From contig CP136061.1 of NCBI GenBank assembly GCA_032622095.1, positions 90,433,745 to 90,497,744 of the forward strand: DNA of 64,000 nt, written 5' to 3'. This DNA comes from Siphonodentalium dalli (lineage: Eukaryota > Mollusca > Scaphopoda > Gadilida > Siphonodentaliidae). The stretch's first letter is position 1; every line of letters starts with the position of its first letter. This document shows, in pieces, positions 418 to 58,335 of the stretch. The translations under genes and the position numbers were made by a program. The notes beneath the pieces were generated by a model that was given only the letters and a program-made list of their open reading frames with translations, had not been told where the DNA came from and searched no databases.

Positions 418-1711
418 TTAAAGATGCATCATCCGAATTAACGCTCCCAAATTACTATTTCTTTGTCTTCGGAGGGTAATTTTTTTTTTATTCCAGTCGA
501 GGAACCCACACACCAAAGTTCAGAGTGATCAGATATCGATTTTTTAAATTTGTTATACTTATTTGTGGCCTGGAAAAAAGTCGTCAAGGCGACGGTCTCG
601 GACAGAATTGCGGATGAATAAGGGTAGCTCTAAAATCAAGAGGTAATACGGTCAAATTTAGTAATAATGCGGCCATATTTCGTTGAACAACATGTTGATA
701 AATAACACGTTTTGGGCAATTTTATATTATATAGTTGACAGTGGTTAGCATTATTTTGTTGTAATTAACCGATTCTGATAACAGTGGTAAAGGTGGTGGT
801 GGGATCAGAATCTTCAAAGAAACGGGGACACAAGGACGTGACTATATATATAGATTGGTATATAGAATACATCTAACACATATGTGTAGATATGAGGTCT
901 TAGTGGTGAAGGTGGTGGTGGGATCAGAAAAGAGACGGGGAAACAAGGACGTGGCTATACACACAGATATATATATAGAATACATTTAACATGTGATGTA
1001 GATAGGTGGTCTTAGTGGTAAATGTGGTGGTGGTGGTGGGAACAGAATCTCAAAAGAGGGGTGGCCACAAGGAGTTGGCTACATAAAGATAGATATTATA
1101 GCATACATTTAACACGTGGGTGTAGATATGTTGTCTTGGTGGTAAATGTGGTGGTGGTGGTGGTGGGAACAGAATCTCCAAAGAGACGGGGGGCACATGA
1201 ACGTGGCTACATACAGATAGCACACATTTAACATGTGGGTGTAGATATGTGGTCTTAGGATAAATGTGGTGGTGGTGGTGGTGGTGGTGGTGGGAACAGA
1301 ATCTCCAAAGAGACGGGGATACAAGGACGCGGCTACATACATATAGATATATAGCACACATTTAACATGTGGGTTATAGATAGGTGGTCTTAGGGTAAAT
1401 GTGGTGGTGGTGGTGGTGGTGGTGGTGGGAACAGAATCTCCAAAGAGACGGGGATACAATAAGGACGCGGCTACATAAATATAGATATACAGAATATATT
1501 AACATGTGGGTGTCAGAGACCGTCGGTTTGACAACTTTTTTTCTAGGCTACAAATAAGTACACATCTCGAGAAATAACAAATTTCAAAAATCGATATCTG
1601 ATCACTCTGAGCTTTGACGGGTGGGTTCCTCGACTCAAATCAATTATTGTTTACCCCCGAAGGCAAAGAAATAGTAATTTGGGAGCGTTAATTCGGATTA
1701 TATACCTTTAA
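418..1711. mobile_element. TTAA-flanked inverted-repeat element, family 1 (expanded copy)
   Basis: Both ends are TTAA, followed by about 165 bp of imperfect inverted repeat (418-580 against 1545-1711) that includes a GGAGCGTTAATTCGGAT word. The interior is swollen by a tandem array. Related copies lie at 6466-6893, 7129-7330 and 8496-8970, with ends reading TTAAAGGTACTCAATCCGA or TTAAAGATGCATCATCCGA. There is no coding capacity, so it is a non-autonomous element. TTAA targets are typical of the piggyBac superfamily; that assignment is inferred from the target alone. Confidence 0.75.
783..1515. repeat. about 120-bp tandem repeat inside the TTAA element
   Basis: About six units each contain a GGTGGTGGTGGG tract, an AACAGAATCTCCAAAGAGACG word, a GGACGTGGCTACAT word and an ACATTTAACATGTGGGTGTA word. 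The GGT tract grows from unit to unit. Frames in this array reading as poly-His or poly-Trp are repeat artefacts. Confidence 0.9.
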
Positions 1712-2344
1712 GAGCTGACTTTCAAATAGGAAACAACTTGGGAGCATGCATGGGGCCCATCGGTTCGCCACGTCCCTATGCAACATATGCCTAGTACCTA
1801 CAATCCTCAGACATAATTGGCCCCGGACCAGATATATTTTATTTCGAACCAGAAATAAACCACAGACAACATTTAATTTCATGCCATGCGCCTGTTAATT
1901 CGTAATGATTTGGGTTTCTTAGCCATGTAGTAACAATGGTGTAAATATGAGTAGAACCGACAACAAACGCACCCTGTATGCTGGAGGTTATACCGGAGAA
2001 ACTATAGCTTCGATGAAAAAATAAAATAAACAGTGATACAGCACATCTACGCATGGGGCCAGAGGGATGGGCATATGGGACAGCTTACTCACCACAGGGG
2101 GGGGGGGTGCCATTTTATACTACATTGAATTGCAAAAAAAAAACCACAACAACTTAATATCAAGAGTAACAGAACATTTGTAATGGCACGAAAGAAAAGA
2201 ATATAAATTTTTATAGAAAAAAAATGTAGTTCATCGAAAGTGTTTTTAAGGTACGGATGGAGAAGGCGATGCATATTGCGGTTAAAATGGTCATATCCGT
2301 TATAACCGCCATAAAACAGAAATAATATTAAAATATAGCCATAT
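1712..2344. other. no gene seen
   Basis: AT-rich sequence with an 11-base G run at about 2097-2107. Short stop-to-stop frames have no recognisable domain or splice context. I see nothing functional here. Confidence 0.6.
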
Positions 2345-2526
2345 AGCTTGTTCTTATACCAATCATAAATATCGCGTAAATAGTATGTTATTGTCAAGTT
2401 CGTACGATGTGTTATGTAAACAAAAGGCGTGTTCTTTAAATTTTTGGCTTTTGTTTACATAACAAAGCGTACGAACTTGACAATAACATACCATTTACGC
2501 GATATTTATGATTGGTATGAGAACAA
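2345..2526. repeat. palindrome with about 80-bp arms
   Basis: The left arm (2345-2428) and right arm (2446-2526) are inverted copies, including CATAAATATCGCGTAAAT and its complement, around a loop of about 20 bases. This is a MITE-like or cruciform-forming repeat with no coding capacity. Confidence 0.9.
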
Positions 2527-2534
2527 AACAGAGA

Positions 2535-2670
2535 CGCTAGGTGATTACTGAATATTAGTTAAAAGAGTGGGTGACTACTGAATGCCAGTTAACATGGGGT
2601 GAATACTGCCCACTAGTTTACAGAGGGGTGAGTACTAGTTTACAGAGGGGTGAATATTGAATACTAGTTA
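2535..2670. repeat. degenerate 33-40-bp direct repeat
   Basis: Four loose copies of a unit containing GGGTGAATACTG and ACTAGTTTACAGAGG follow each other directly. A short minisatellite. Confidence 0.7.
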
Positions 2671-2950
2671 AGAAAATATGCGATGAAGGACATAAATTTC
2701 ATAACTTTTCTCAATAGTAAATCATTCTGACAAACTGTTCCACATTAAGAGAAAACGTTCTGTTATCTATTTTCCGACACAGTGATGACCAGATGCGACG
2801 CCGTTGATCGTTGAGGCAGTGAACGCCTATCACGGGCAATTTGGTCGCCATCAAAGTCGCGTTCCCGCTTTTTATTTGAACCATTTAGTGACGATGAGTT
2901 TTCGATGACCTCACTTTAAATCTCGTCGAGTAAGATTTAACTCAACAAGG

Positions 2951-3467
2951 CAGTACTTATGGAATCCTATTAGGGCCACTTCCTAATGGCGCTTTCGGCG
3001 CGCGCCGAAAGCGACAAAAAGTGCGCCATTAGTAACGCGCCGAAAGCGACAAAAAGTGCGCCGAAAGCGACAAAAAGTGCACCGTTACGGCGCACTTTTT
3101 GTCGCTTTCGGAGCTTTCGGCGCGCGCCGAAACATACCCTAATGGCGCACTTTTTGTCGCTTCCGGCGGGCGCCATTAGGGAGTGGTCCTAATAGTATGC
3201 CATTAGTAACGCGCCGAAAGCCGTTACGGCGCACATTTTGTCGCTTTCGGCGCGCCGAAACATGCGCTAATATCGCACATTTTGTCGCTTTCGGCGCGCG
3301 CCGAAAGCGCCGAAAGCGACAAAAAGTGCACCGAAAGCGACAAAAATAGTGCGCCGTAACGGCGCATATTTTGTCGCTTTCGGCGCGTTACTAATGGCGC
3401 ACTTTTTGTCGAAAGCCGAAAGCGCCATTAGGAAATGGCCCTAATAGGATTCCATAAGTACTCAACA
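2951..3467. mobile_element. GC-rich MITE with about 45-bp terminal inverted repeats
   Basis: The ends read AGTACTTATGGAATCCTATT and its complement, and the outer 45 bases mirror each other (2951-2996 against 3422-3467). The interior is a maze of inverted GCGCCGAAAGCGACAAAAAG blocks that can fold into several nested hairpins. Composition is clearly more GC-rich than the flanks. Open frames here are repeats of that block and are not genes. Confidence 0.85.
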
Positions 3468-6465
3468 GCTGCGCAGTTATGGCCCCTAGCAACGTTGAGT
3501 AAAACGTTGAGTAAACTATTTCTACTCAACGAGTTGAGCAAAATTTTTCTCAACACCTGAAAATGAAATCGCTCAACAACCGATTGATTTTGCTCAACAG
3601 TTGACTGAACATTTTCTCAGTTAAGAAAAGGAGTTGGCTAGGAATATGTGTTGTTAGAATTCTCGAAACTAAACTGGATGATATATCCAGAATCAGCTAA
3701 TTAGATTTGGAAATATCTGGAAATTTATGAAATTCCTGATATAATATCCGAAAATGGTCTGTTGGAAGATATTAAATTATTTTGCGATATATTTGATTCA
3801 TATATGTCTGGATTATGTGTGGTGTCCATGAAATTAGAACACCGGCCTCAAAATGTTTACTTTTAATGAGGCGATGAAGTTATGAAGTTCCGACATACCT
3901 ATCGGCCATCTCCTCCCATCTCAATGTTGCATTTATAGATCCAAAAATGATGTTGAAACGTAGATTAAACATCTTGAAATGACTACCATTATATATATAC
4001 AGTGTTTTAAATAGAGTTATTGTTCTTAAAACTGTTGATCCACGTGTTGATTAAATGGTTTAGAGCGCAATCCCATTGTTGCAATCGTTCCCTGATTTTT
4101 GGTAAAGCACACCAATTCCCAAGGCTGTCGAAGGAATAGTTCAGTGTTTATCCCATTGTTAGGCACAGGCAACTCATAACAGACAAATCGCACGGGCGCT
4201 TCAATGTGGGAGCAGTCCGGGTTGTTTCGGACATATCTATTCACATTCAACGGCGATTAGTTTATGTTAATCACGTTGTTGGGCGTGGATGGCCGGCTAT
4301 TGTGTCCAATCGCGACCAGCGCACGAATTGTACGTCGTGGTCAAAACATGCTCAACGGCACATTTCCAGTTGATTGCATTATGTGGGATCAATTGTGCTC
4401 TATAAGTCGGTCAGAGCACGCGAATAGTTCTTTACCAGAATAAATCTCGTCTTCGACTCAATTGATTCTGGTAAAGAACAATTCTTGTGCTCTAACCTTT
4501 ACTTGTCATTGTTGAGTACTCGTTACTCAAACCTTGAATACAAACCGCAAATTATCACTCAAAGTGTTGAGTAGAGATTTTACTCATTTTAGTCAACAAG
4601 ATTTTCAGTGCTCTCTTTTGACTCGACATTAATTTTACGGCGAAAAATATATAGGCCTACATGAACGATCTAAATATATATATGGTAATTGCTAACTCTG
4701 AATTTGCGAAACCTCTCTATCTGTAATAACGATAGACGAAAGTGTTAGAACGACCGGAAACGAAAAATGAAAACATTGCTTGCATTCAAACGTATAATTC
4801 GCTTTCAAAACGACCAACCAGTACCTATTACTAAGTTACTTCTGGGTTCAGTCTTTGAGGTTAGACAATTTAACGCACTTTGATCTGTAGGAGAGATGCT
4901 AGCCGTCTCATTTCTATGTTCTCGTGGTTAACACAGGTGTGAATGTGTTTCCACGCGGTTAATTGTGCCAAAAATACTAAAAGCATTATTTATCCAGCTT
5001 CTCTTTTTAAACACTGAGTGGTTTAAGATTGGATTTCGAAATGCTGATCGACAGAAGGATCGTGTAAGAACAATAAGCTTATAAGCGCTCTTCGTTACCG
5101 GAATTGGTTGAGTAATTTCGCTGCAACGAAACTCTGATTAGATCACTTTCTTACGCCGGAGTTCGAGAGGCATGCTGATGATGTTGCGTATCCATGCGGT
5201 TCCGGTTTAGCGGAATTATGGCGGATTATATTTGACCAAGGACTTATACTCGATTAGAGTACCACGCTGCCATGATATCATCGAGCTGTTGTTCCAGTGA
5301 CGTTTTACTGTTCTCTGTCCACAGAGTGCCACGATGTTGTTGAGACTCGACTTACACACACGAGTTTCTGGATTCGAGTATAACTCTGGAATATATCACC
5401 ACACTGCGGTGTTGCGTCTCCAATTCCAATTTGAATAAATTTCAGCCGATTTGATTGGACCAGAGTCGTTCACAGGCGTCTGTCGAGAGTTCCACTGTGA
5501 TGTGTAGAGACTGAACTTCCGATTTGAACAAAACTCAACTGCGGATTTGATTTGACCAGTGACACATATATTATAACTATATATGCATGCTGGCTGCATG
5601 TCTCCGGCAACGTTTTTTTTTGGCTGACAAGTGACTTGAACAGGAGTCAATCGGGTCGAATGTCCGCTTATTGTGGAGTCTCCATGATTCTGGTTTGAAT
5701 AGAGCTCAACTGATATCTCGATCCGAATTCAGACTGATCTGATCAATATCATAGGATCGTTCTTCAGACCACATGAAATGGCGCGACAAATGTACATGAT
5801 GTCTGTGATACGATATTTCAAGTCCCTGGAAAAATGCCGCGAAGACGCCATGGTGAGTTAATATTTATTACACACCTCTCGCTCCCGATGCGCAGCAGTA
5901 CTATGCAGAGATCATTCTGATGACGCTCCATCAACCTACATACATGTATACATGCATGTTAACAATGAAACACGTGTAGTTATGCTTATTATATACATGC
6001 CATGTTCACATACAATTATTTATTAATTATTGTTTTATTATGCATTGTATTCTTAGCATACTGCTTTTATTGGTGTTTATGAAACAAATCTTACTTTATC
6101 ATCTTATACGGCAATAATATATAGAGCCTAAAAGTGCATGTGACCTGTCAGCAGGGACGTGTCGATAGGAGTGGCAGCGGCGTGATGGTTGAGTTGGAAA
6201 TTTAATGCCTGTCACAGCATAAATTGGAAATTTCAGACAGAAATCATGTTTAAATTTTTTATTTTTTTTACAAACAGTCGAAATTTTCCCCTCTTCCGGT
6301 CTAATGTTTAAACCGAATTGCCACCAGTTAGACAATTTCCTACTATGGGTTTTAGGGTGGAAAGCACTCTTAGAATCCGTGAATTAAAAAAATACATGCT
6401 TATACAAGGTTTATTTAGGCACATACAGGATTTGTTATGTCCTGATTATGTGATGCTGCTTTTAT
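3468..6465. other. 3-kb stretch without a recognisable gene
   Basis: ACTCAAC and GTTGAGTA words recur at 3495-3610 and 4500-4590. A hairpin with a TCTTTACCAGAAT stem lies at about 4395-4496. A degenerate repeat with words like TTTGAATAAA..CAACTG..GATTTGA spans about 5190-5720. A strong splice-donor-like GTGAGT follows a short open stretch at 5853, but no gene could be built from it. Confidence 0.6.
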
Positions 6466-7818: not shown

Positions 7819-8034
7819 TACAGTAATGCCCAAAGTAATTGACCACTTAACCACAGCAGAATTATGGGTAATTTTTCAGGATTTAGTCGGAAATATGGCT
7901 TGTTGCCATTCATCGGAAAGCTCTCGGCAAGAGCTTTCCGATGAATGGCAACAAGCTATATTTCCGACTAAATCCTGAAAAATTACCCATAATTCTGCTG
8001 TGTTAAGTGGCCAATTACTTTGGGCATTACTGTA
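7819..8034. mobile_element. TA-flanked hairpin MITE (family E), full length
   Basis: Ends read TA-CAGTAATGCCC and GGGCATTACTG-TA. The whole 216 bp folds into one near-perfect hairpin with the tip at AGCTCTCGGC. The TA flanks and CAGT ends suggest mobilisation by a Tc1/mariner-type transposase; this is inferred because no transposase is present. About 17 further copies occur downstream. Confidence 0.9.
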
Positions 8035-8980: not shown

Positions 8981-9180
8981 TTAAAGTGATATGAAACACT
9001 CCAATATAGGGGTTCTGTTGAGGTGCTCACATCGAAGAATTATGATCCATGTTGTTATTTCGGAATATTTTACTGCATATTGATTAGAAGATGTCAATAG
9101 CGAATAATCTAACTGAAAGTAGTCATTTTCATAACGGTTATGTCAAAATACATATTGTTGTCCCACAATTGATGATAACC
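8981..9180. mobile_element. partial TTAA element, family G
   Basis: Begins TTAAAGTGATATGAAACACTCC, like 45080-45455 and 49570-49922, and keeps a diverged AATAATCTAACTGAAAGTAGT word. The right end is not recognised. Confidence 0.55.
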
Positions 9181-9327
9181 CGCCTGTTTGGCCCCCAGAT
9201 CAGGAACGATAACTCTATCCGACCTATATGCAGTACATGGAGGGTGACCTATATTCTCCGCCCACGCGTCGGTCTATTTGTATGCCGGTTGTGCATGTCC
9301 GGACATGACCCGTTGGTTATATCCAAT
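9150..9327. repeat. outer, diverged part of the large inverted repeat (left)
   Basis: Matches the complement of 15780-15985 in blocks such as GGAACGATAACTCTAT, ACCTATATTCTCCGCCCACG and ATGTCCGGACATGACCCG, with indels and substitutions. This divergence contrasts with the near-identical inner arms. Confidence 0.8.
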
Positions 9328-9351
9328 GGGATAATGTTAAAGTGACACTCG

Positions 9352-9602
9352 CAATGAAAACTTCAAAAAATTCAAAACTTCAAAAATTTCAAAAACTTCA
9401 AAAAGTTCAAAAACTTCAAAAAGTTCAAAAAGTTCAAAAAGTTCAAAAACTTCAAAAAGTTCAAAAAGTTCAAAAAGTTCAAAAATTTCAAAAACTTACA
9501 AAATTTCAAAAAGTTCGAAAAACTTCAAAAAAATTCAAAAACTTCAAAAACTTCACAAATTTCACAAATTTCACAAATTTCACAAATTTCAAAAAACTTT
9601 AA
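9352..9602. repeat. TTCAAAAAG/TTCAAAAAC minisatellite (left)
   Basis: A 9-10-bp unit repeated about 25 times, ending in TTCACAAAT units. Mirrored at 15337-15585 with a slightly different copy number. The low-complexity Lys/Gln/Phe frame through it is not a gene. Confidence 0.95.
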
Positions 9603-9634
9603 AAATTAAACAAAATTCAGGATTTAGTCATAAA

Positions 9635-9720
9635 TGTGACCCGCTATATCAAATCCAGTCGGAAGTCGGGATTTTTTTTATCCTGTGCCAATGCATTCTC
9701 TTATATATGCGAGTCGACCA
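9635..9720. mobile_element. half of a family-D hairpin MITE (left)
   Basis: Reads TGTGACCCGC, then TATCAAATCCAGTCGG, then the shared hairpin half from GCCAATGCATTCTC to GAGTCGACCA. It stops exactly at the tip of the hairpin seen whole at 18028-18090, where GCC-rich sequence begins. The other half is the mirror copy at 15228-15313. Confidence 0.85.
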
Positions 9721-9805
9721 GCCACCGCCGCCGGCGGCGGCGGCGGCGGCAACTACATAATCCTATGGCATGCAAAGAAATTGGCGGCGGCGCTGCCGCC
9801 GGCGG
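9721..9805. repeat. GCC-rich inverted segments
   Basis: Short CCGCCGCCGG runs that mirror each other flank a 37-bp AT-containing insert. Mirrored at 15143-15227. Confidence 0.8.
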
Positions 9806-9853
9806 TTCAGGATTTAGTCAAAAATATGGCTTGTTTCCATTCATCGGAAAGCT
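9806..9853. mobile_element. half of a family-E hairpin MITE (left)
   Basis: TTCAGGATTTAGTCAAAAAT..CATTCATCGGAAAGCT is the inner left arm of the family E hairpin (compare 7877-7924). It ends near the hairpin tip, and the virus-like cassette follows. The opposite arm is at 15095-15142. Confidence 0.85.
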
Positions 9854-9942
9854 ATGGGGGTACGGTGGTGAGCGCCACTGAAAAAAGCAAGTGAGCGAGG
9901 GAAAAAAGAGAAAAATAACATGACAAGTAGTACATAGTACAA

Positions 9943-9948
9943 TTTATT
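9943..9948 (-). terminator. poly(A) signal of the left cassette
   Basis: AATAAA on the minus strand (TTTATT on the plus strand) just beyond the stop of the left C2H2 protein. Confidence 0.55.
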
Positions 9949-9955
9949 ATATTAA

Positions 9956-10813
9956 CTATTCACAGTCACTTTCGTCCGAATTGTCATCACTTTCGTCAGA
10001 TGTGTCATTTGTTTCGTCCATGAACTTTTCTAGCAATGGTCTGTACTTTAATATTGACATTTTCACTGCATCACGATCTTCAAAACCATTCTTCATATAT
10101 TTCTCCACTTTATCCATGACACTGTTGTGCAGCGTACCATTGCGCAGCCACATATTCTTTATTATTGTCCAAGCATAAACATTCATAAATAGCCTCATGC
10201 CTTCAGTTTTAAGATCTGTACTTTTAAGGTCCTTGTCAGCTTGTACTTTTGCCTCTTTTTCTGTCGAGCCATTTTCCATATACGTTTCCACGTTATCACT
10301 CCATGCTTCTTGTGCTTTATCTCTACTCTCATCACACAAACTTTTGAAGTATTCATCTTCATTCGATTTAATTTTCTTATTCTGACTATCATCCGTGTCC
10401 TCAGTTAATTTTCGTTTTAACTTATTTTCTTGACACCAGTTTTTTACGTGTCTCTGGACATCATGCTGATCTTCGAACAAAAGCCCACAGTCATTGCAAG
10501 GGTACGACATGTCTTCTCGAATGCCTATGTTTTTATGGTTTTCTTTATTAATTTCATTGATCTCACCAGGTGTCCTTATGTCCTTAGTATAGCCATTATG
10601 TTGACCCTGGGGCACACTATAATTATATGTCATGCACTCCCGTTGACCAGGGAGATCTCTGTCATCATATTTCATCTCATTCCGTTGATCCGGGCTATTG
10701 TTGTCATCATATTTCACCACATTCTGTTCATCTGGGTGCTCGCTGTCCTTATGGAGATTATATTTCACGCCATTCCATTCACCCATATGTTGGTTCGTGT
10801 CCTCTTTTAGCAC
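9956..10813 (-). CDS. acidic C2H2 zinc-finger protein of the virus-like cassette, left copy (285 aa)
   Basis: Identical in sequence to the protein of the right arm (14135-14992). The N-terminal 90 residues are polar and repetitive, with a loose motif around VKYDDNN..DQRNEMKYDD. A single C2H2 finger follows at about residues 105-127 (CNDCGLLF..HDVQRHVKNWC). Next is a basic stretch (KLKRKLTE..KKIKSN) that could be a nuclear localisation signal, then a mostly helical C-terminal half and an acidic tail (TSDESDDNSDESDCE). I do not recognise a catalytic domain. Proteins with a finger followed by a helical segment occur beside similar ATPases in invertebrate virus-like elements, but their role is not known to me; DNA binding is inferred from the finger. 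The start overlaps the ATPase gene by 35 bases, which implies compact polycistronic expression or internal initiation. Confidence 0.85.
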   Translation of the reverse strand: MLKEDTNQHMGEWNGVKYNLHKDSEHPDEQNVVKYDDNNSPDQRNEMKYDDRDLPGQRECMTYNYSVPQGQHNGYTKDIRTPGEINEINKENHKNIGIREDMSYPCNDCGLLFEDQHDVQRHVKNWCQENKLKRKLTEDTDDSQNKKIKSNEDEYFKSLCDESRDKAQEAWSDNVETYMENGSTEKEAKVQADKDLKSTDLKTEGMRLFMNVYAWTIIKNMWLRNGTLHNSVMDKVEKYMKNGFEDRDAVKMSILKYRPLLEKFMDETNDTSDESDDNSDESDCE

Positions 10814-11681
10814 ATTCTGTCGCAGCCGTAATGTGTCCGGGGTTGCGGCTTTTTAAATCCACCAGTAGGTAACCGTACGGTTCACTCGTCGCTTCCGAAA
10901 ACTCTCGCATCATACGTTGAGGGCATTCAGGATACATCTGTCTTGATAATGTTGAAATTAAACCCTTGTCAATTGGATTATTGAACAATACCAAATATTG
11001 ACAATTTCGTCGTTGCGTCGGATCCTTGTTGTAGTAGAAATTCTGGTTCAAACTTATCAAAGATAAGTTCAAATGGTGACTTCCTTCGGAATGTAAATCA
11101 TTAACTCTCTGGTCTTTTGATGAAGTTTGCATCAAGTCATCGAGTACAACTAGATTTTTATACTGGGGGTTGATAAGAGAATCCAAGTTTGCTGGTATTC
11201 CCCGTATAAAGTTGACCTGAGGGGTGACGGTATACTTTATGTCATCATATAGGGGCTGCCAATATTTATAAAACCATATTATTCTGTCAGGTGCGGGTGA
11301 TATTTTTGAGGCAGACTTTTGTAGCAAGGTTTTCACGAAGTACGTCTTCCCACTAGATGTCGGTCCACTTACACATGCCGTGAATGGATGCTTGAAAATA
11401 AAATCTTCTTGGACATTGGCCATTGAATCATCAAAGCAGGATGTTATGTCGCTTTGTTGCTGTTTCCCCTGCTGGTGTTGTAGTATCTGGTGTTGCTGTA
11501 ATGGCGGTTGTTGTGGCTGATGATGCTGCTGCCTGTTGCTGCTGCTGCTGTTTGTTGCTGCTGCTTGGTGGTGCTGCTGTGGGTGTCGGTTAACAAACTC
11601 AGTGTGCTTAGATTGTACATGTCTTATCAAATCATGGTTCCGCACATACTCACTAGAGCAAATTGAACACTGGTGCTTCAT
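10779..11681 (-). CDS. zinc-finger plus packaging-type ATPase, left copy (300 aa)
   Basis: Identical to the right-arm protein at 13267-14169, which holds the full domain description. It lies on the minus strand between the basic protein and the acidic C2H2 protein, so transcription runs outward from the palindrome centre. The frame is intact, with no stops. Because both arms keep the same intact frame, either selection or recent homogenisation (gene conversion, or a recent duplication) is needed to explain the identity. Confidence 0.9.
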   Translation of the reverse strand: MKHQCSICSSEYVRNHDLIRHVQSKHTEFVNRHPQQHHQAAATNSSSSNRQQHHQPQQPPLQQHQILQHQQGKQQQSDITSCFDDSMANVQEDFIFKHPFTACVSGPTSSGKTYFVKTLLQKSASKISPAPDRIIWFYKYWQPLYDDIKYTVTPQVNFIRGIPANLDSLINPQYKNLVVLDDLMQTSSKDQRVNDLHSEGSHHLNLSLISLNQNFYYNKDPTQRRNCQYLVLFNNPIDKGLISTLSRQMYPECPQRMMREFSEATSEPYGYLLVDLKSRNPGHITAATECAKRGHEPTYG

Positions 11682-11761
11682 TTATACTTGACTAAAATAT
11701 CTCGGGGGTATATGGCTTTCCTTTATACAAATGTTCCTTATAACCTCAAATCTGTCCTGTA

Positions 11762-11842
11762 TTAACGGCGGCGGCGTTTGCCGACGGCGTTTTTTTCCAC
11801 CGGCCTTTCAATAGCCTTCGAAAATTTAGGTAAATTACTCAT
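11762..11842 (-). CDS. tiny ORF overlapping the basic protein, left version (26 codons)
   Basis: Its ATG overlaps the stop of the basic-protein gene as ATGA. A homopolymer near 11797 has seven T here but six A in the right arm, so the two copies end differently. This version ends in a cluster of four arginines after a lysine; the right copy ends TGQI after 31 residues. A short arginine-rich tail would suit a nucleic-acid-binding peptide, but a homopolymer sequencing error in either arm could explain the difference. Whether it is translated is unknown. Confidence 0.35.
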   Translation of the reverse strand: MSNLPKFSKAIERPVEKNAVGKRRRR

Positions 11843-12060
11843 TTTAGTTCAGTGAATATGTCGTTTGGAGTTTTCTTTTTAACTTTTCCAATGTTTGTCT
11901 TCTTCGCTCTTCCTCCTTTTATCTCTTTAACTTTTATCTTCTTAGATCCGGGTTTCCTTATAAGTTTTTCAGGTTTCACTTCAGTCTTGGGTAGGTACTT
12001 CGAGTCATCGTAGGGTACATATTTTTTAAGATCAAAGTCATAATAGTGCGGAGTCCCCAT
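11839..12060 (-). CDS. small basic protein, left copy (73 aa)
   Basis: Identical to the right-arm copy at 12889-13110. The N-terminus is aromatic and acidic (HYYDFDLKKYVPYDDSKY) and is followed by a lysine-rich tail with little secondary-structure bias. See the right copy for its possible role. Confidence 0.75.
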   Translation of the reverse strand: MGTPHYYDFDLKKYVPYDDSKYLPKTEVKPEKLIRKPGSKKIKVKEIKGGRAKKTNIGKVKKKTPNDIFTELK

Positions 12061-12098
12061 TCCGGCTAAAGTTCAAAGTGTACTCTGAAGTAGTAATT

Positions 12099-12106
12099 TT
12101 TATATA
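12099..12106 (-). promoter_or_regulatory. TATA-like box for the left cassette
   Basis: TATATAAA on the minus strand, about 40 bases upstream of the basic-protein ATG. It mirrors 12843-12850. Confidence 0.5.
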
Positions 12107-12179
12107 CGCCAAAATACCATCCAAGACGTATACCCTTATAAACTTCGGACCAGTCCTAGTAACGCGCACGTCAACGCCG

Positions 12180-12184
12180 CCGGA

Positions 12185-12239
<55 letters not shown>

Positions 12240-12240
12240 T
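12180..12240. repeat. GCC/GGC trinucleotide run, left
   Basis: About 18 perfect GGC units between TATA box and centre. The mirror run at 12701-12764 is about three units longer. The poly-Ala frame through it is a repeat artefact. Confidence 0.95.
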
Positions 12241-12263
12241 CTGTTGTTGTAGTTGTTGTTGTT

Positions 12264-12676
12264 CACATGTTCGAACTTCCTGCATTATATACAAGAACGA
12301 CAGGGACGTGGCGACAGGGGGCTGGGATGTCTGCCCCCACCCTCAACTTTGATAGCAATAAGTTGAAAATGTCATGCCCGACACATTAGTTGGAATTTTA
12401 CACCACATGTAGGTTGAACTTGTTTCATTGTCTGATTTTCCAACATGTTATTAGTGTGAAATTTGTAGTTTTTAGACCAATAATAGTCTGAAATGATGTC
12501 CATCCGTCTGTTGGAAATTTAGATTAGACATTTCAAACTGTTCGAACGTTTGAGGTACCAACTTTCCAACCTAAGGGAGGAGGTGCAAATATGGTATTTG
12601 GTATCGGAGTTTGGTCTGGTTGAAGGAGGGGGTGGTGCAATTGGAAATCACTCATAATTGCAATGACATTTGTATC
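12264..12676. repeat. central spacer of the palindrome, a dispersed repeat copy
   Basis: This 413-bp segment is the only non-mirrored part between the arms. Words such as GACACATTAGTTGGAA, GTGTGAAATTTGTAGTTT and TTTAGACC, plus a purine-rich tail, recur in the same order at 16205-16480 and 28720-28950. The centre is therefore a member of a dispersed family and not unique viral DNA. It contains no convincing gene. Confidence 0.7.
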
Positions 12677-12700
12677 AACAACAACAACTACAACAACAGA

Positions 12701-12764
<64 letters not shown>
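12701..12764. repeat. GCC trinucleotide run, right
   Basis: About 21 GCC units, nine bases longer than the left run. This length difference is one of the few changes between the arms. Confidence 0.95.
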
Positions 12765-12842
12765 TCCGGCGGCGTTGACGTGCGCGTTACTAGGACTGGT
12801 CCGAAGTTTATAAGGGTATACGTCTTGGATGGTATTTTGGCG

Positions 12843-12850
12843 TATATAAA
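12843..12850 (+). promoter_or_regulatory. TATA-like box for the right cassette
   Basis: TATATAAA lies 39 bases upstream of the ATG at 12889. With its mirror copy it makes the palindrome centre a plausible bidirectional promoter region, the GCC runs lying just upstream of each box. Confidence 0.5.
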
Positions 12851-12888
12851 AATTACTACTTCAGAGTACACTTTGAACTTTAGCCGGA

Positions 12889-13110
12889 ATGGGGACTCCG
12901 CACTATTATGACTTTGATCTTAAAAAATATGTACCCTACGATGACTCGAAGTACCTACCCAAGACTGAAGTGAAACCTGAAAAACTTATAAGGAAACCCG
13001 GATCTAAGAAGATAAAAGTTAAAGAGATAAAAGGAGGAAGAGCGAAGAAGACAAACATTGGAAAAGTTAAAAAGAAAACTCCAAACGACATATTCACTGA
13101 ACTAAAATGA
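12889..13110 (+). CDS. small basic protein of the virus-like cassette, right copy (73 aa)
   Basis: Starts MGTPHYYDFDLKKYV and continues into a Lys-rich tail (KKIKVKEIKGG, AKKTNIGKVKKK), ending in a short amphipathic stretch (NDIFTELK). It has no transmembrane segment and no cysteines. Small lysine-rich proteins of this kind in double-stranded DNA viruses often condense DNA or serve as minor virion proteins; applying that here is inference. The first ATG after the TATA-like box was taken as start. Its stop overlaps the ATG of the next tiny ORF (ATGA at 13107-13110), a layout typical of very compact genomes. The left-arm copy is identical. Confidence 0.75.
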   Translation: MGTPHYYDFDLKKYVPYDDSKYLPKTEVKPEKLIRKPGSKKIKVKEIKGGRAKKTNIGKVKKKTPNDIFTELK

Positions 13111-13202
13111 GTAATTTACCTAAATTTTCGAAGGCTATTGAAAGGCCGGTGGAAAAAACGCCGTCGGCAAACGCCGCCGCCGTTAATACAGGACAGATTT
13201 GA
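13107..13202 (+). CDS. tiny ORF overlapping the basic protein, right version (31 aa)
   Basis: Begins MSNLPKFSKAIERPVEK and ends in TGQI. It starts at the ATGA overlap with the upstream gene. The left arm has one more base in the six-A run at 13153-13158, giving a shorter, arginine-ended product, so only one version can be the ancestral frame. No family recognised. Confidence 0.35.
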   Translation: MSNLPKFSKAIERPVEKTPSANAAAVNTGQI

Positions 13203-13220
13203 GGTTATAAGGAACATTTG

Positions 13221-13227
13221 TATAAAG
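13221..13227 (+). promoter_or_regulatory. possible TATA box before the ATPase gene
   Basis: GTATAAAGG occurs about 45 bases before the ATPase ATG, in the only sizeable gap of the cassette (13203-13266). It may give the ATPase its own promoter; otherwise it is read from the upstream one. Confidence 0.3.
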
Positions 13228-13266
13228 GAAAGCCATATACCCCCGAGATATTTTAGTCAAGTATAA

Positions 13267-14169
13267 ATGAAGCACCAGTGTTCAATTTGCTCTAGTGAGT
13301 ATGTGCGGAACCATGATTTGATAAGACATGTACAATCTAAGCACACTGAGTTTGTTAACCGACACCCACAGCAGCACCACCAAGCAGCAGCAACAAACAG
13401 CAGCAGCAGCAACAGGCAGCAGCATCATCAGCCACAACAACCGCCATTACAGCAACACCAGATACTACAACACCAGCAGGGGAAACAGCAACAAAGCGAC
13501 ATAACATCCTGCTTTGATGATTCAATGGCCAATGTCCAAGAAGATTTTATTTTCAAGCATCCATTCACGGCATGTGTAAGTGGACCGACATCTAGTGGGA
13601 AGACGTACTTCGTGAAAACCTTGCTACAAAAGTCTGCCTCAAAAATATCACCCGCACCTGACAGAATAATATGGTTTTATAAATATTGGCAGCCCCTATA
13701 TGATGACATAAAGTATACCGTCACCCCTCAGGTCAACTTTATACGGGGAATACCAGCAAACTTGGATTCTCTTATCAACCCCCAGTATAAAAATCTAGTT
13801 GTACTCGATGACTTGATGCAAACTTCATCAAAAGACCAGAGAGTTAATGATTTACATTCCGAAGGAAGTCACCATTTGAACTTATCTTTGATAAGTTTGA
13901 ACCAGAATTTCTACTACAACAAGGATCCGACGCAACGACGAAATTGTCAATATTTGGTATTGTTCAATAATCCAATTGACAAGGGTTTAATTTCAACATT
14001 ATCAAGACAGATGTATCCTGAATGCCCTCAACGTATGATGCGAGAGTTTTCGGAAGCGACGAGTGAACCGTACGGTTACCTACTGGTGGATTTAAAAAGC
14101 CGCAACCCCGGACACATTACGGCTGCGACAGAATGTGCTAAAAGAGGACACGAACCAACATATGGGTGA
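13267..14169 (+). CDS. C2H2 finger fused to an FtsK/HerA-type packaging ATPase, right copy (300 aa)
   Basis: Residues 1-29 form a C2H2 finger (CSICSSEYVRNHDLIRHVQSKH). Residues 36-84 are a Gln/His-rich linker encoded by CAG/CAA runs. From about residue 95 comes a P-loop ATPase: Walker A GPTSSGKT (about residues 106-113), Walker B NLVVLDDLM (about 175-183), a sensor-like SLNQN (about 210-214), and a conserved end YGYLLVDLKSR. This layout (FKHPFTACVSGPTSSGKT..FYKYWQPLYDD..GSHHLNLSLISLNQN..RQMYPECP) matches the A32/FtsK-HerA genome-packaging ATPases of Polinton/Maverick and adintovirus-like elements, which pump double-stranded DNA into capsids. No capsid gene is present, so the packaging role here is unproven. 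The finger at the N-terminus may aid DNA recognition. The 3' end overlaps the next gene by 35 bases in another frame. Confidence 0.92.
   Translation: MKHQCSICSSEYVRNHDLIRHVQSKHTEFVNRHPQQHHQAAATNSSSSNRQQHHQPQQPPLQQHQILQHQQGKQQQSDITSCFDDSMANVQEDFIFKHPFTACVSGPTSSGKTYFVKTLLQKSASKISPAPDRIIWFYKYWQPLYDDIKYTVTPQVNFIRGIPANLDSLINPQYKNLVVLDDLMQTSSKDQRVNDLHSEGSHHLNLSLISLNQNFYYNKDPTQRRNCQYLVLFNNPIDKGLISTLSRQMYPECPQRMMREFSEATSEPYGYLLVDLKSRNPGHITAATECAKRGHEPTYG
13372..13500 (+). repeat. CAG/CAA run inside the ATPase gene
   Basis: In-frame mixed CAG, CAA and CAC codons make a Gln/His-rich linker between the finger and the ATPase domain. It is identical in both arms, which is notable for a repeat expected to change length quickly. 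Confidence 0.9.
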
Positions 14170-14992
14170 ATGGAATGGCGTGAAATATAATCTCCATAAG
14201 GACAGCGAGCACCCAGATGAACAGAATGTGGTGAAATATGATGACAACAATAGCCCGGATCAACGGAATGAGATGAAATATGATGACAGAGATCTCCCTG
14301 GTCAACGGGAGTGCATGACATATAATTATAGTGTGCCCCAGGGTCAACATAATGGCTATACTAAGGACATAAGGACACCTGGTGAGATCAATGAAATTAA
14401 TAAAGAAAACCATAAAAACATAGGCATTCGAGAAGACATGTCGTACCCTTGCAATGACTGTGGGCTTTTGTTCGAAGATCAGCATGATGTCCAGAGACAC
14501 GTAAAAAACTGGTGTCAAGAAAATAAGTTAAAACGAAAATTAACTGAGGACACGGATGATAGTCAGAATAAGAAAATTAAATCGAATGAAGATGAATACT
14601 TCAAAAGTTTGTGTGATGAGAGTAGAGATAAAGCACAAGAAGCATGGAGTGATAACGTGGAAACGTATATGGAAAATGGCTCGACAGAAAAAGAGGCAAA
14701 AGTACAAGCTGACAAGGACCTTAAAAGTACAGATCTTAAAACTGAAGGCATGAGGCTATTTATGAATGTTTATGCTTGGACAATAATAAAGAATATGTGG
14801 CTGCGCAATGGTACGCTGCACAACAGTGTCATGGATAAAGTGGAGAAATATATGAAGAATGGTTTTGAAGATCGTGATGCAGTGAAAATGTCAATATTAA
14901 AGTACAGACCATTGCTAGAAAAGTTCATGGACGAAACAAATGACACATCTGACGAAAGTGATGACAATTCGGACGAAAGTGACTGTGAATAG
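14135..14992 (+). CDS. acidic C2H2 zinc-finger protein, right copy (285 aa)
   Basis: The first ATG (MLKEDTNQHMGEW) lies inside the 3' end of the ATPase gene; a second Met at residue 10 is an alternative start just before the ATPase stop. Domains are as in the left copy: polar repetitive N-terminus, one C2H2 finger (CNDCGLLFEDQHDVQRH), basic patch, helical region with VETYMENGSTEKEAK and VEKYMKNGFEDRDAVK, which look like two copies of one helical repeat (about residues 173-191 and 237-253), and an acidic tail. The internal repeat V-E-x-Y-M-x-N-G is seen in the sequence; its function is unknown. An AATAAA signal starts eight bases after the stop. The conserved position after the ATPase suggests a packaging, virion or regulatory partner, but this is inference. 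Confidence 0.85.
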   Translation: MLKEDTNQHMGEWNGVKYNLHKDSEHPDEQNVVKYDDNNSPDQRNEMKYDDRDLPGQRECMTYNYSVPQGQHNGYTKDIRTPGEINEINKENHKNIGIREDMSYPCNDCGLLFEDQHDVQRHVKNWCQENKLKRKLTEDTDDSQNKKIKSNEDEYFKSLCDESRDKAQEAWSDNVETYMENGSTEKEAKVQADKDLKSTDLKTEGMRLFMNVYAWTIIKNMWLRNGTLHNSVMDKVEKYMKNGFEDRDAVKMSILKYRPLLEKFMDETNDTSDESDDNSDESDCE

Positions 14993-14999
14993 TTAATAT

Positions 15000-15005
15000 A
15001 ATAAA
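15000..15005 (+). terminator. poly(A) signal of the right cassette
   Basis: AATAAA eight bases after the stop of the C2H2 protein, mirrored at 9943-9948. Such tight spacing fits a compact cassette read by host polymerase II. Confidence 0.55.
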
Positions 15006-15094
15006 TTGTACTATGTACTACTTGTCATGTTATTTTTCTCTTTTTTCCCTCGCTCACTTGCTTTTTTCAGTGGCGCTCACCACCGTACCCCCAT

Positions 15095-15142
15095 AGCTTT
15101 CCGATGAATGGAAACAAGCCATATTTTTGACTAAATCCTGAA
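15095..15142. mobile_element. half of a family-E hairpin MITE (right)
   Basis: AGCTTTCCGATGAATGG..GACTAAATCCTGAA is the other inner arm of family E. It pairs with 9806-9853 and encloses the cassette. Confidence 0.85.
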
Positions 15143-15227
15143 CCGCCGGCGGCAGCGCCGCCGCCAATTTCTTTGCATGCCATAGGATTATGTAGCTGCC
15201 GCCGCCGCCGCCGCCGGCGGCGGTGGC

Positions 15228-15313
15228 TGGTCGACTCGCATATATAAGAGAATGCATTGGCACAGGATAAAAAAAATCCCGACTTCCGACTGGATTTGAT
15301 ATAGCGGGTCACA
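15228..15313. mobile_element. half of a family-D hairpin MITE (right)
   Basis: Runs from TGGTCGACTCGCATATAT to GCGGGTCACA. It is the mirror of 9635-9720 and matches the right end of the intact family D element at 17972-18438. Confidence 0.85.
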
Positions 15314-15336
15314 TTTATGACTAAATCCTGAATTTT

Positions 15337-15585
15337 GTTTAATTTTTAAAGTTTTTTGAAATTTGTGAAATTTGTGAAATTTGTGAAATTTGTGAAGTTT
15401 TTGAAGTTTTTGAAATTTTTTGAAGTTTTTGAAGTTTTTCCAAAAATTTTTTAATTTTGTAAGTTTTTGAAATTTTTGAACTTTTTGAACTTTTTGAAAT
15501 TTTTGAAGTTTTTGAAATTTTTGAACTTTTTGAACTTTTTGAACTTTTTGAACTTTTTGAACTTTTTGAAGTTTTCGTTGCGAGT
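15337..15585. repeat. GAACTTTTT/GAAGTTTTT minisatellite (right)
   Basis: Mirror of 9352-9602 with about 15 bases less and some unit rearrangement (GAAGTTTTTCC, TTTTTTAATT). Confidence 0.95.
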
Positions 15586-15605
15586 GTCACTTTAACATTA
15601 TCCCA

Positions 15606-15779
15606 CAGTGTGCGCCATGCGTTACTTTAACATTCATCCATAGTGAGTGTCACTTTAATAATCATCCCCAGTGAGAGCCTAGTGTCCCTTTAAAATTAAA
15701 GACTGAAGCTACCCCCCCCCCCCCCCGAGATCATCACGTGATATACATGTAGATACTATACCATTCATATGGAAAAGTC
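15606..15779. repeat. insertion found only beside the right arm
   Basis: Three loose units containing CACTTTAA and CCCAGTG words, then a 16-base C run at about 15711-15726. It separates the near-identical arm from the diverged outer homology and is absent on the left side. Confidence 0.7.
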
Positions 15780-15985
15780 TGAATATAACCAGCGGGTCAT
15801 GTCCGGACATGTCCAACCGGTACAAGTAGACCTTCGAAATTTTTTGGACATGCCCAACCGGTATACAAATAGACCGACGCGTGGGCGGAGAATATAGGTC
15901 AAGCTGTCTAGACGGGAGTACTGCAGAGAATAGAGTTATCGTTCCTGAAATGGCCCCAACTGGGGTGGGTATCATCACACAATAT
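15780..15985. repeat. outer, diverged part of the large inverted repeat (right)
   Basis: Counterpart of 9150-9327, with an internal near-duplication of a GGACATG..CAACCGGTA..AAATAGACC segment not seen on the left. Confidence 0.8.
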
Positions 15986-16204: not shown

Positions 16205-16480
16205 ACAATCTCTCACTCTTCAATGCAGGGAAGTTGCGACAGGGGGTTGGGTGTATCACCTCCGACTTTGGTCAAAATGTTTTACAGTTGTAAATTTCAT
16301 GACTGACACAACATTAGTTGGAAATTACATACCAAAAAACTAGCTACATATAGGTTGAGATTTTTACGAACCAGCAGGCATAATCAGTGAGGAATGTTTT
16401 GTTTTTAGACCGATCGTCTTGGTAATAATGTTGGACTGAAATGACCATCGGTTGGAAAATTTTCACTTGTAAATTGAATT
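16205..16480. repeat. dispersed repeat related to the palindrome centre
   Basis: Shares GCGACAGGGGG, ACACAACATTAGTTGGAAAT, TTTTTAGACCGAT and GACTGAAATGACCATCGGTTGG words with 12300-12530 and 28720-28950, in the same order. Confidence 0.65.
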
Positions 16481-16784
16481 GAATTCAATTCAGTTTAGTC
16501 GTCAATAATATACATTACATATGTGTATACGTAAATACAATATATATGGTCATTATAGGTATACATGTATATAAGTATGACATAAAAAATAGGAATGTGG
16601 TGGTCGATATTCGTTAGTTACACTCTTTAAGTTCGACGGACTGATTGTAGTAATCCTCAGGGGGGCCGGCTAAATATTTCAAGGGCCTTCTTAATAAATA
16701 CTGGCAAGTTTTTAACTGTCTTATGACACCCCAATGTAGATCCTATAGTCTCGTCCCCGCACACCTAAATGTATACACTCTTCT

Positions 16785-17084: not shown

Positions 17085-17971
17085 CTGATTATAGGGTAGA
17101 ACATATACCTACGTTCACAACAATGATATCTCACCTGCTAACCAGATGTCATGTTCTTGATTCATTTGTCACAATGTACAGATGGTGACTTTTATTATAT
17201 CCGGGGTGAAATGTTATGACTTTCACTGCAATTAATATAACACACGATTTCACGAATTTTATATACTTGACTGATTGATTTATTGCAAAGTCACATACAA
17301 TGTTCAGTGAAACAAGCAAACGATGTATATGCAGCCAATACCATATCTAATCGTGGTTCCGATTATATAGCGATTGGTATTCAATCTGAGTAACAGGTGG
17401 TACGCGATGTTCCGATTGTATATCAAAATGTTTATCCAGATTTAATCGAAAGGGGGTCATTATATTGACAAAGTAACGGAGCTATTCAGAAATTTAAAAC
17501 AAATATATGAAAAACATTGTTTACAGAGCGTTTTTTTTTAAAGACCGTTTTTAACAGAAAGTACGTAACCACATTGGCTGTGTTCCCATGGCAGAGACCC
17601 AGAACCGTGCATGAGCGGGGGGGGGGGGGGGCGAAATAAATATAGGCGAGAAAACAAGCGACCAGACATGCCTCTTTAAACTGAGGTGGACAGACCAAAA
17701 CAAACATTCCCATATAAACTAAGAAGGATAACTCTAGGGTAGAAAAAGCTAACAACGTGATAAATTGTGTACTCTTTTGAAATTACTCCCAGCGCCAAAC
17801 CTGGGTCAGCCAAATTCCATTCAAATCCGATAACCCATGGCTGCATGAGATATAAGCCCGTATGTTGCAATTTTAATCCAGTATAATTATGACAAGACCA
17901 GGAACCTAGCTACTTCATATTTTGCTCGAAAATGGCGGCAAAATATCACGCCTGGAAATTTCGTTTGTCTA
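17085..17971. other. no gene seen
   Basis: AT-rich, with a run of G at about 17617-17631. No repeat family recognised. Confidence 0.5.
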
Positions 17972-18438
17972 TATGTGACCCGCCATATCAAATCCAGTCG
18001 TAAGTCGGGATTTTTTTTACCCTGTGCCAATGCATTATCTTATATATGCGAGTCGACCATAGGTCGCCTCGCATATAAAAGAGAATGCATTGGCCTAACA
18101 ATTTAAAAAAAATTTAATAATTTTTTCTTGTATTATTTAACAATTTTATTATTTCACCCATACAGAGCCCCAGACAAACATGAGCAGACGACACTCTTCT
18201 ATATGCTTCTATATATGTGTGGGGCTCCCTGCAGGGTAATGGATGTTTTTTTTATTTTATGTCCTAAAAATTGTAAGAAACATTTATTTAAAAAATAAAT
18301 GATAAAAAATTGTTAGGCCAATGCATTCTCTTATATATGCGAGGCGACCTATGGTCGACTCGCATATATAAGAGAATGCATTGGCACAGGGTAAACAAAT
18401 CCCGACTTACGACTGGATTTGATATGGCGGGTCACATA
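17972..18438. mobile_element. family-D hairpin MITE, intact
   Basis: Flanked by TA, with ends TGTGACCCGCCATATCAAAT and its complement. Each end carries a full copy of the 66-bp shared hairpin (18028-18090 and 18318-18387) starting CCAATGCATT. The middle is AT-rich with a TGTGTGGGGCTCCCTGCAGG word. A second copy lies at 51031-51426. Confidence 0.9.
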
Positions 18439-18712
18439 TTTTATATAAATCAACTGGTAGCGTACGTTCCCGGCGGCCCTGGATAATAGGCTATATATAC
18501 CCCCCCCCCATGTATACAACCCGTACATTTTCTTCGATGAGTTGGGATATCATAAAAAATAAAAACACTCAACCGAAACTGTGCCAATCCAATCTCAGCA
18601 AGGTGGCCACGGTATGAAGAGTCCATTGAATATAGAGTTACTCCCCGCCGACAGTAATTTGTTCTTAACAACGTTGGCGGGAAAATATGATCTTCTCGGC
18701 GAATCTGGTAGA

Positions 18713-20534: not shown

Positions 20535-21350
20535 CCGACTTCGTCCGGGCTGTTTCCCCTCTGCTTTTCGGCGAATTGCTCGATTTGACCTTGAATTGAC
20601 CATTTTGAAGGTCAGGGTCAGGTTGGGGTCACGATTTGACCAGTCCAAAACACTCTTCGGACAAAAGTAACCCTAGGTATCAAATTTCGTCGAAATCCCG
20701 TCAAAATTCGAGATTTGACCTTGAATTGACAATTTTGAAGGTCAAGGTCAGGTCGGGGTCACAATTTGAACCGTCCAAAACACTCCCCGGACAAAAGTAC
20801 ACCTATGTATCAAATTTCGTCGAAATCCGTCCGTTTTACCAGATTTGACCTTGAATTGACCCTTTTGAAGGTCAAGGTCAGGGTAACGATTTGACCCGCC
20901 CAAAAGACTCCCCGGACAAAATTACCTCTAGGTATCAAATTTCGTCGAAATCCGTCCACTTTTACCAGATTTGACCTTTTTGAAGGTCAAGGTAAGGTCG
21001 GGGTCACGATTTGACCCGTCCAAAACACTCTTCGGACAAAAGTAACCCTAGGTATCAAATTTCGTCGAAATCCCGTCAAAATTCGAGATTTGACCTTGAA
21101 TTGACAATTTTGAAGGTCAAGGTCAGGTCGGGGTCACAATTTGAACCGTCCAAAACACTCCCCGGACAAAAGTACACCTATGTATCAAATTTCGTCGAAA
21201 TCCGTCAGTTTTACCAGATTTGACCTTGAATTGACCCTTTTGAAGGTCAAGGTCAGGTCGGGGGTAACGATTTGACCCGTCAAAAACACTCCCTGGACAA
21301 AATTATCCCTAGGTATCAAATTTCGTCAAAATCCGGCTGGCAGTTTTCCC
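20535..21350. repeat. tandem array, 120-130-bp unit
   Basis: Five to six units share GATTTGACCTTGAATTGAC, TGAAGGTCAAGGTCAGG, CCGGACAAAAGTA and TATCAAATTTCGTCGAAAT. Units 20640-20830 and 21011-21205 are nearly the same, so the array grew partly by doubling a two-unit block. Open frames through it repeat the unit and are not genes. The array begins after TATACTAGCTGGTGGACCCG. Confidence 0.9.
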
Positions 21351-28500: not shown

Positions 28501-28719
28501 CAATAAACACAATATATAATTATATAAGCCCGAAGCTACCGGTATAGAGTAGATACATGTATTCATCTACCAGTTTCCAACTTAATTTGGCAGATGCTCA
28601 ATCTATACTCACTCGTAGAATGGAACAGAATACACCAAGACCGGTATAACATACATGTACATGTACATGTATGTGCTACATTAAATTTCCTGAAATAATT
28701 TCTCTTCAAAATGACCCGA

Positions 28720-28950
28720 ATGTTAGAAATTTATGCCCGACAGGGCCGACACGACATCAGTTGGACACTTCAGACTAAACCAGGTTCAAATTGTTCTGAT
28801 ATTTTGATTTTCCAAACTATACATGTATATAGTGTGAAATTTGTTGTTTAGATCGAAACTTGCATATTTTGTTACTTTCGGTCAATTTTATTTGACAGAA
28901 ATGACCAGCGGTTGGAAAATTTGCATCATTAGAGGAACTTCCCGGGTATG
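28720..28950. repeat. dispersed repeat related to the palindrome centre
   Basis: Has CGACACGACATCAGTTGGA, GTGTGAAATTTGTTGTTTAG and GAAATGACCAGCGGTTGGAA in the same order as 12300-12530 and 16205-16480. Confidence 0.65.
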
Positions 28951-29566
28951 GGAATTTGGTTTTGGTTCAAGTGGCTGCAGTTTCGAATTCTAAGAACGCC
29001 CCCCCCCCCCCCCCTACCAATAAAAGTTGAGACTGGCAGCACTATCCTACACACTGTCACTTGTCGAGCTCAGCACTAAAGTCTTGTCGACAATACTCGA
29101 TGTTGTCAAAAAACCGCACATACCCTTTAACAACACACTGACCTATTGTTCAACGTGACACACTTAGAAAGGCCACGTGACCTTGATGGAGCGAAATCGA
29201 TCACGTGGGTGACATTGTTTATAAACTCTGCAGCGACTTCCGGTGCTTCTGGCCCACGTGTATTGTCTCGATATGTGACGATGCTGGTAGAATATTGGTA
29301 AATGCGACATACATGTACATATACCGGTACGGTAGAACCTGCTTACACTGGACACACAGGTACCGGGTATGACATCCACTACTACATGTATATGCTTGCT
29401 CACACCAGGAACGAAGCTTGAGGAACTTTGTCCACTTAGAATTTATAAGTTATAATGTAAATTGCATCCCGACTTAGATTAGAATTTTACTGTACAATCC
29501 AGTCATGTACAATTATTTTTTTAATCAAGTAAAATAATTGAAAAATTTAAACAATCGTATTACAGG

Positions 29567-58297: not shown

Positions 58298-58335
58298 ACA
58301 CAATCACTTACTCATAGCTGTCCCAGAATCAGGTG

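Follow-up and report, generated by a model that had tools for sequence, protein, structure and literature searches.

Structure and limits of the element

The element described here lies in a window of 64,000 nucleotides from the scaphopod Siphonodentalium dalli (assembly GCA_032622095.1, contig CP136061.1, positions 90,433,745 to 90,497,744 of the forward strand; the positions given below are those of the window). It is a gene-bearing palindrome of 6808 bp (9170-15977), each half of which carries a broken packaging-ATPase gene and a short lysine-rich open reading frame (ORF). An earlier note on this DNA had placed the palindrome at 9328-15605. The inverted repeat is real and far beyond chance (9327-12263 against 15605-12677, 98.4% identity over 2949 columns by BLASTN), but these limits proved too narrow, the repeat continuing outward to 9170 and 15977 at 76-87% identity.

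The inverted match stops at both of these positions, and directly outside them stands an exact 6-bp direct repeat, CACAAT (9164-9169 and 15978-15983), which we read as a target-site duplication (TSD). Of 100000 position pairs drawn at random from outside the element, 51 had an exact repeat of at least 6 bp; in a separate run of 20000 drawn pairs, which left out pairs less than 1 kb apart but not the element itself, 8 were exact and 290 matched with 3 bp of slack on each side. The element begins with TGATGATA and finishes with TATCATCA, a doubled triplet at each end (TGATGA//TCATCA). The 6-bp duplicated flanks, together with inverted ends carrying a doubled triplet, are the marks of a Polinton/Maverick-type insertion, and the ends may have served protein-primed replication. 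A young insertion at 9327-15605, nested in an older relic, was ruled out: direct repeats at these inner limits (±4 bp) do not exceed 3 bp, and in the alignment the right end continues into the outer repeat.

The outermost parts of the two arms are imperfect terminal inverted repeats (TIRs). The left one (9170-9325, plus strand) matches 15977-15780 at 76-87% in BLASTN, in two blocks (9170-9300 against 15977-15846 at 76%, and 9271-9325 against 15832-15780 at 87%), with 18 mismatches over 149 aligned bases. The right one (15780-15977, minus strand) includes about 41 bp that are absent from the left end, and a subterminal stretch of degenerate repeats of AGTGTCACTTTAA..ATCC, at 15606-15779, is likewise present on the right only. 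Each arm then contains a tandem array with a unit of 9 bp, AAAACTTCA at 9357-9605 and AATTTTTGA at 15341-15575, of about 27 and 26 copies respectively. It is within these arrays that the identity of the arms changes from low to about 100%; the arms differ there also by indels, and the two arrays are not near-identical.

Inward of the arrays, the left inner arm (9606-12263, minus strand) and the right inner arm (12677-15340, plus strand) are almost the same sequence. All the differences found by MAFFT alignment within 9606-12263 are one substitution (9752/15196), a 1-bp indel at 11790 and a 9-bp (GGC)3 indel. The arms are separated by a non-palindromic spacer of 413 bp (12264-12676), in agreement with the centre described before. 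Part of this spacer (12301-12604) resembles a dispersed repeat that is also found just outside the element at 16226-16562 (score 156; BLASTN E 4.6e-6), with a second and less sure likeness at 28719-28990 (score 123; BLASTN E 2.7e-5) and a third possible one at 6152-6374 (score 67). For comparison, the 50th, 90th and 99th percentiles of 150 random windows, in which members of the same family may be included, were 50, 63 and 117, and the highest score among them was 123.

Within the window, all the long GC-triplet runs fall inside the element (22 of 22 overlapping hits for GGCGGCGGC and 25 of 25 for GCCGCCGCC), and shorter runs occur partly outside it as well (GGCGGC 29 of 32 inside, GCCGCC 32 of 33 inside). 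Such runs border a segment at 9616-9853, mirrored at 15095-15332, that holds part-copies of two families of palindromic miniature inverted-repeat transposable elements (MITEs). The first is a half copy of a local MITE, cut at the MITE centre (9631-9720, mirror 15228-15317; 94% identical to 17970-18059), and the second is a part copy ending near the centre of its family (9806-9853, mirror 15095-15142; about 85-96% identical to many copies in the window).

A packaging-ATPase gene broken in both arms

The three longer ORFs of each arm (300, 285 and 73 aa) had been noted as giving the same proteins on the left and on the right, and they are in fact identical even as DNA. The 300-aa ORF (10779-11681 on the minus strand, 13267-14169 on the plus strand) encodes a C2H2 finger followed by an A32-type ATPase domain and, in addition to its homologues, matches PF04665 (Pox_A32) with 28.8 bits for a curated cut-off of 22.8. 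This supports the proposal that the protein belongs with the Polinton-type packaging ATPases. The 285-aa ORF (9956-10813, minus strand; 14135-14992, plus strand) lies in another frame and encodes a second C2H2 finger and an acidic tail. Since it aligns to the C-terminal part of relatives that are single chains, each arm carries one broken gene, and the two ORFs are the two parts of one predicted protein of about 500 aa with the order C2H2, A32-type ATPase, C2H2 and acidic tail. The same alignment rules out two separate genes. A search with the 285-aa ORF itself brought up 218 candidates, none of which scored, perhaps because of a length rule of the search. The four overlapping genes per arm described earlier are thus not retained, the 300- and 285-aa ORFs forming one broken gene and the 73-aa ORF overlapping neither of them.

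The frame shift lies downstream of the ATPase domain and ahead of the second finger, and is the same in both arms. A functional full-length ATPase protein is probably not produced by the element, and the break itself may instead stem from a sequencing error. At the conserved positions of the ATPase, the window protein departs from its relatives at 7 of 57 (place 11 among 121, shared with one other; the median is 3.5%), and in the tree it has a long branch (1.06) and is grouped with one relative (P0032) at a support of 91, which does not reach the starred level. On the basis of these departures and of the long branch, relaxed constraint on the ATPase was considered and set aside as a weak case. 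A search of solved structures with the ATPase ORF returned just two weak zinc-finger matches (E 0.15 and 0.89).

The 73-aa lysine-rich ORF (11839-12060, minus strand; 12889-13110, plus strand) is taken from the ORF list and is considered here as a candidate ORF, without a claim of gene status. A TATA-like TATATAA precedes the right copy at 12843-12849. No homologue was detected by a search that returned zero candidates, and the predicted model is poor (predicted local distance difference test score 68, predicted template modelling score 0.24). The remaining ORFs of the arms overlie those described above in a different frame or on a different strand, or consist of translated repeats (the 9-bp array, the MITE pieces or the GC-triplet runs).

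To the 42 distinct ORFs of at least 95 aa in the window and the 73-aa ORF, with the mirror copies of the element taken once, Pfam assigned no polymerase, integrase, protease or capsid above or near its cut-offs, and the Polinton genes for PolB, retroviral-type integrase, capsid and protease are accordingly without a match among the element ORFs of this set. The 40 further window ORFs of that length (32 outside the element and 8 in it or over its edge) gave three matches with E ≤0.01, all below the cut-offs and in repetitive ORFs, which we take as chance; one of them, located in the 16-bp array at 14-421, is to a phage spike jelly-roll domain. Nothing came near any cut-off in NCBIfam, the window held nothing at the gathering scores of Rfam, and BLASTN found no second copy of the genes of the element in the rest of the window.

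Relatives of the ATPase

Searching with the 300-aa ORF gave 374 proteins at E ≤0.001 among 861 candidates. The organisms named among the best 120 of these 374 matches are bivalves (Pecten, Solemya, Mytilus, Ruditapes and Mya) and one Sedimenticola metagenome-assembled genome (MAG), the latter being probably host carry-over. Identity was 41-63% among 20 rows of the ATPase alignment and 25-33% among 11 rows of the C-terminal alignment; 18 of 21 rows of the former matched PF04665 at E ≤0.01. In 14 of the 18 relatives read, one chain contains both the second finger and all or a large part of the ATPase domain, open copies of the gene being among them. The bivalve C2H2-ATPase-C2H2 proteins (for example Pecten maximus LOC117328408, Solemya velum ScPMuIL_009244 and Ruditapes LOC132743954) are homologous along both window ORFs, but there the protein is one open chain of about 500 aa, whereas the element has it in two frames. 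The element also draws attention to a lineage of packaging ATPases with two fingers in bivalves. Judged by the homologues alone, the genome around the element looks bivalve-like.

A contig search found one relative locus (L001), on a contig that is filed under the MAG of a Bathymodiolus symbiont but probably represents DNA of the mussel host. Its ATPase pieces lie on the plus strand within 4403-5128, and 2.6 kb away, in divergent orientation, a fragment at 1577-1825 on the minus strand matches DNA_pol_B_2 (PF03175; E 8e-5, 22.1 bits, below the cut-off of 25.8). Broken pieces opposite to the ATPase strand extend over 1577-4472 of this contig, one of them being the DNA_pol_B_2 fragment and another containing a C2H2 finger. 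Other pieces on the strand of the PolB fragment look polymerase-like but gave no Pfam polymerase match. The PolB fragment supports, without proving, the view that this ATPase family belongs to polymerase-bearing elements. In IMG/VR, from which the genome records of the window itself may be excluded, no relatives were found of the ATPase, its C-terminal part, two polymerase-side pieces of the mussel contig or an end sequence.

Comparison with known systems

With the Polintons or Mavericks (polintoviruses, adintoviruses) and the Polinton-like viruses, the element has in common a packaging ATPase of the A32/FtsK-HerA type, inverted ends, a 6-bp TSD and a repeated short motif at the ends. Its TIRs are imperfect over the outer 160 bp, and the ATPase is frame-broken downstream of its ATPase domain. 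Since no PolB or integrase match was obtained in the ORFs of the element, and a PolB fragment lies near the relative on the mussel contig, it is labelled here as a Polinton-type derivative, not as a full member. Intact vertebrate Mavericks are described with a 6-bp TSD, ends of repeated di- or trinucleotides, inverted repeats of 46-1447 bp and a total length of 12,723-24,620 bp (PMC8097293), in contrast to the 6.8 kb of the element and its repeats of about 3 kb. In the account available of the Polinton-like viruses and virophages of cryptophytes, the TIRs measure hundreds to thousands of bp (PMC12220804), so that the length of the repeats alone is not new. A doubled terminal triplet is known from adenovirus, where it serves the jumping-back, protein-primed initiation of replication (PMC4974454).

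Two other groups were compared. The Galileo copies with two recombinant TIRs of Drosophila mojavensis are also non-autonomous with two long inverted repeats, and tandem repeats occur in the TIRs of some Galileo copies (PMC3573991); like them, the element has a two-repeat structure, a short middle and no match to a transposition gene. Galileo differs in being of the P superfamily, with 7-bp target sites and TIRs of up to about 1.26 kb, whereas the element is Polinton-type with arms of about 3 kb and a virus-type gene. For these Galileo copies, the authors propose a break in one TIR repaired on the other, with the copy tract running inward, and they cite other works for an expansion of inverted repeats in Polintons (PMC3573991). 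Ginger2 transposons, the integrase of which is related to that of Polintons, share a 6-bp target and ends starting with TG. Membership was ruled out, as the element has TGATG ends, CACAAT as target and a packaging-ATPase gene, instead of the TGTNR ends and RTATAY targets reported for Ginger2 (PMC2836005). In the parts of the literature that our search reached, no description was found of a Polinton-type gene-bearing palindrome or of a bivalve lineage of two-finger packaging ATPases.

Origin of the palindrome

Mismatches number 18 over 149 aligned sites in the outer repeats and a single one over 2658 in the inner arms (Fisher test, 7e-23, with sites taken as independent in one gapped alignment of a rearrangement-rich stretch). 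On a neutral reading, 18 of 149 corresponds to 6.6% change per arm. When random decay of this size was simulated, with one indel per eight substitutions and 85% of indels frame-breaking, none of 2000 ORF pairs stayed free of stops with no more than one break of the frame; the proportion was 1% at 2.5% change per arm and 2.5% at 2%. Since the ORFs are too intact for neutral decay of 6.6%, either the ends were probably already unequal at integration or the ORFs have been under selection.

An origin that in our judgement only just deserves to be called probable is that of a non-autonomous Polinton/Maverick-type insertion, in which recombination or copying inside the 9-bp arrays turned the two unequal ends into mirror images. 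The parent would have been an ordinary linear element with imperfect TIRs and a 9-bp array in each. A break or a replication switch in one end could have been repaired on the inverted array of the other end, with a copy tract that took in the ATPase and 73-aa ORFs and reached about 2.7 kb further into the element. The copied arm would then have been joined via the 413-bp spacer, and the opposite interior, with the polymerase, capsid and integrase genes, would have been lost. The spacer may be filler from end joining. The step proposed for the Galileo copies would fit here as well, whether it preceded integration, in a molecule under replication, or followed it in the chromosome, and gene conversion from arm to arm may also have helped to keep the arms identical. 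The product could have moved solely with enzymes supplied from elsewhere. The MITE part-copies, as they are present in both arms, would predate the mirror copying. If this origin is right, the element illustrates how virus-like mobile elements may become gene-bearing palindromes, and it offers a bounded and testable case in which the probable crossover zone, the 9-bp array, is still visible.

Several points weigh against this origin. Only a single copy was seen, and the non-palindromic parent is hypothetical. Pfam recognised no polymerase, integrase, protease or capsid, and the ends do not show (AG)3 or (AGT)2, given as end motifs of vertebrate Mavericks (PMC8097293), a vertebrate motif that may not apply to bivalves. 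Because the TIRs of Polinton-like viruses reach thousands of bp (PMC12220804), long repeats are possibly normal and not secondary. That the ORFs are intact could be due to selection on them and not to ends that were unequal from the start, and the assumptions of the Fisher test limit the contrast between outer and inner repeats. Finally, the spacer copy of the dispersed repeat is diverged (about 70% over the best 107 columns), a weak likeness, and the spacer may be a later insertion.

The palindrome may instead have been preformed, as a double-headed (snap-back) derivative that arose from one end of a linear protein-primed genome and was inserted by a helper integrase, with later gene conversion between its arms. 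Protein-primed linear replicons such as adenovirus can give symmetric derivatives, the TSD brackets the whole palindrome and the gene order is symmetric, all in agreement with such a birth. The ends of a derivative of this kind are expected to be identical at the start, yet they differ at 18 of 149 sites and by indels while the ORFs are open, and in the simulations neutral decay of that size never left an ORF pair this intact. The defective double-headed derivative of the earlier note is accordingly disfavoured in its simple one-end form, the unequal ends speaking for recombination between two different ends within the arrays, and we regard this explanation as unlikely. A bolder variant, rather improbable in our view, is that of a satellite of bivalve Polintons that is itself mobile and palindromic: its double-headed linear genome would carry the ATPase and the small basic protein at both ends and be copied and integrated with full-length relatives as helpers.

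That the gene-bearing palindrome, with the ATPase and the 73-aa protein, is the normal mobile form of a small element family moved in trans would suit the TSD boundaries, the confinement of the long GC-triplet runs to the element and the missing polymerase and capsid matches. We hold it to be improbable, given that the gene is frame-broken in both arms, that most of the homologues read carry the ATPase and the second finger in one chain, and that the rest of the window is without a second copy. The related suggestion of the earlier note, a genome whose terminal repeats hold genes, is literally true of the window copy; in most of the relatives read the gene forms a single open chain, and one relative lies near a PolB fragment.

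The step from 1 of 2658 to 18 of 149 at the edge of the arms is what would be seen if conversion faded outward, as in an old chromosomal palindrome of an ordinary Polinton relic, the identity of which was kept solely by long arm-to-arm gene conversion. This explanation leaves the origin of the palindrome itself unexplained, and the ORFs are too open under neutral decay, so that it appears quite improbable. An assembly artefact, whether from a fold-back read or from the merging of two arms into one consensus, would account for arms that are almost identical, but it is highly improbable in view of the unique flanks with a matching TSD, the unequal ends and arrays, the non-palindromic spacer and the three resolved differences between the inner arms.

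Other repeats of the window

The window is rich in other repeats. A palindromic MITE family, mostly of about 217 bp, TA-flanked and with ends close to CAGTAATGCCC, has copies at 7819-8034, 33090-33371, 37930-38146, 39715-39931, 44819-45035, 48438-48654 and 58982-59198, about 87-97% alike among the BLAST pairs listed. A second palindromic family, built on CCAATGCATTCTCTTATATATGCGAGTCGACC and often forming two hairpins, occurs at 17971-18439, 35045-35235 and 51020-51395. Long tandem arrays were found at 25-399 (unit of 16 bp), 20582-21335 (130 bp), 58332-58604 (42 bp) and 63163-63622 (173 bp).

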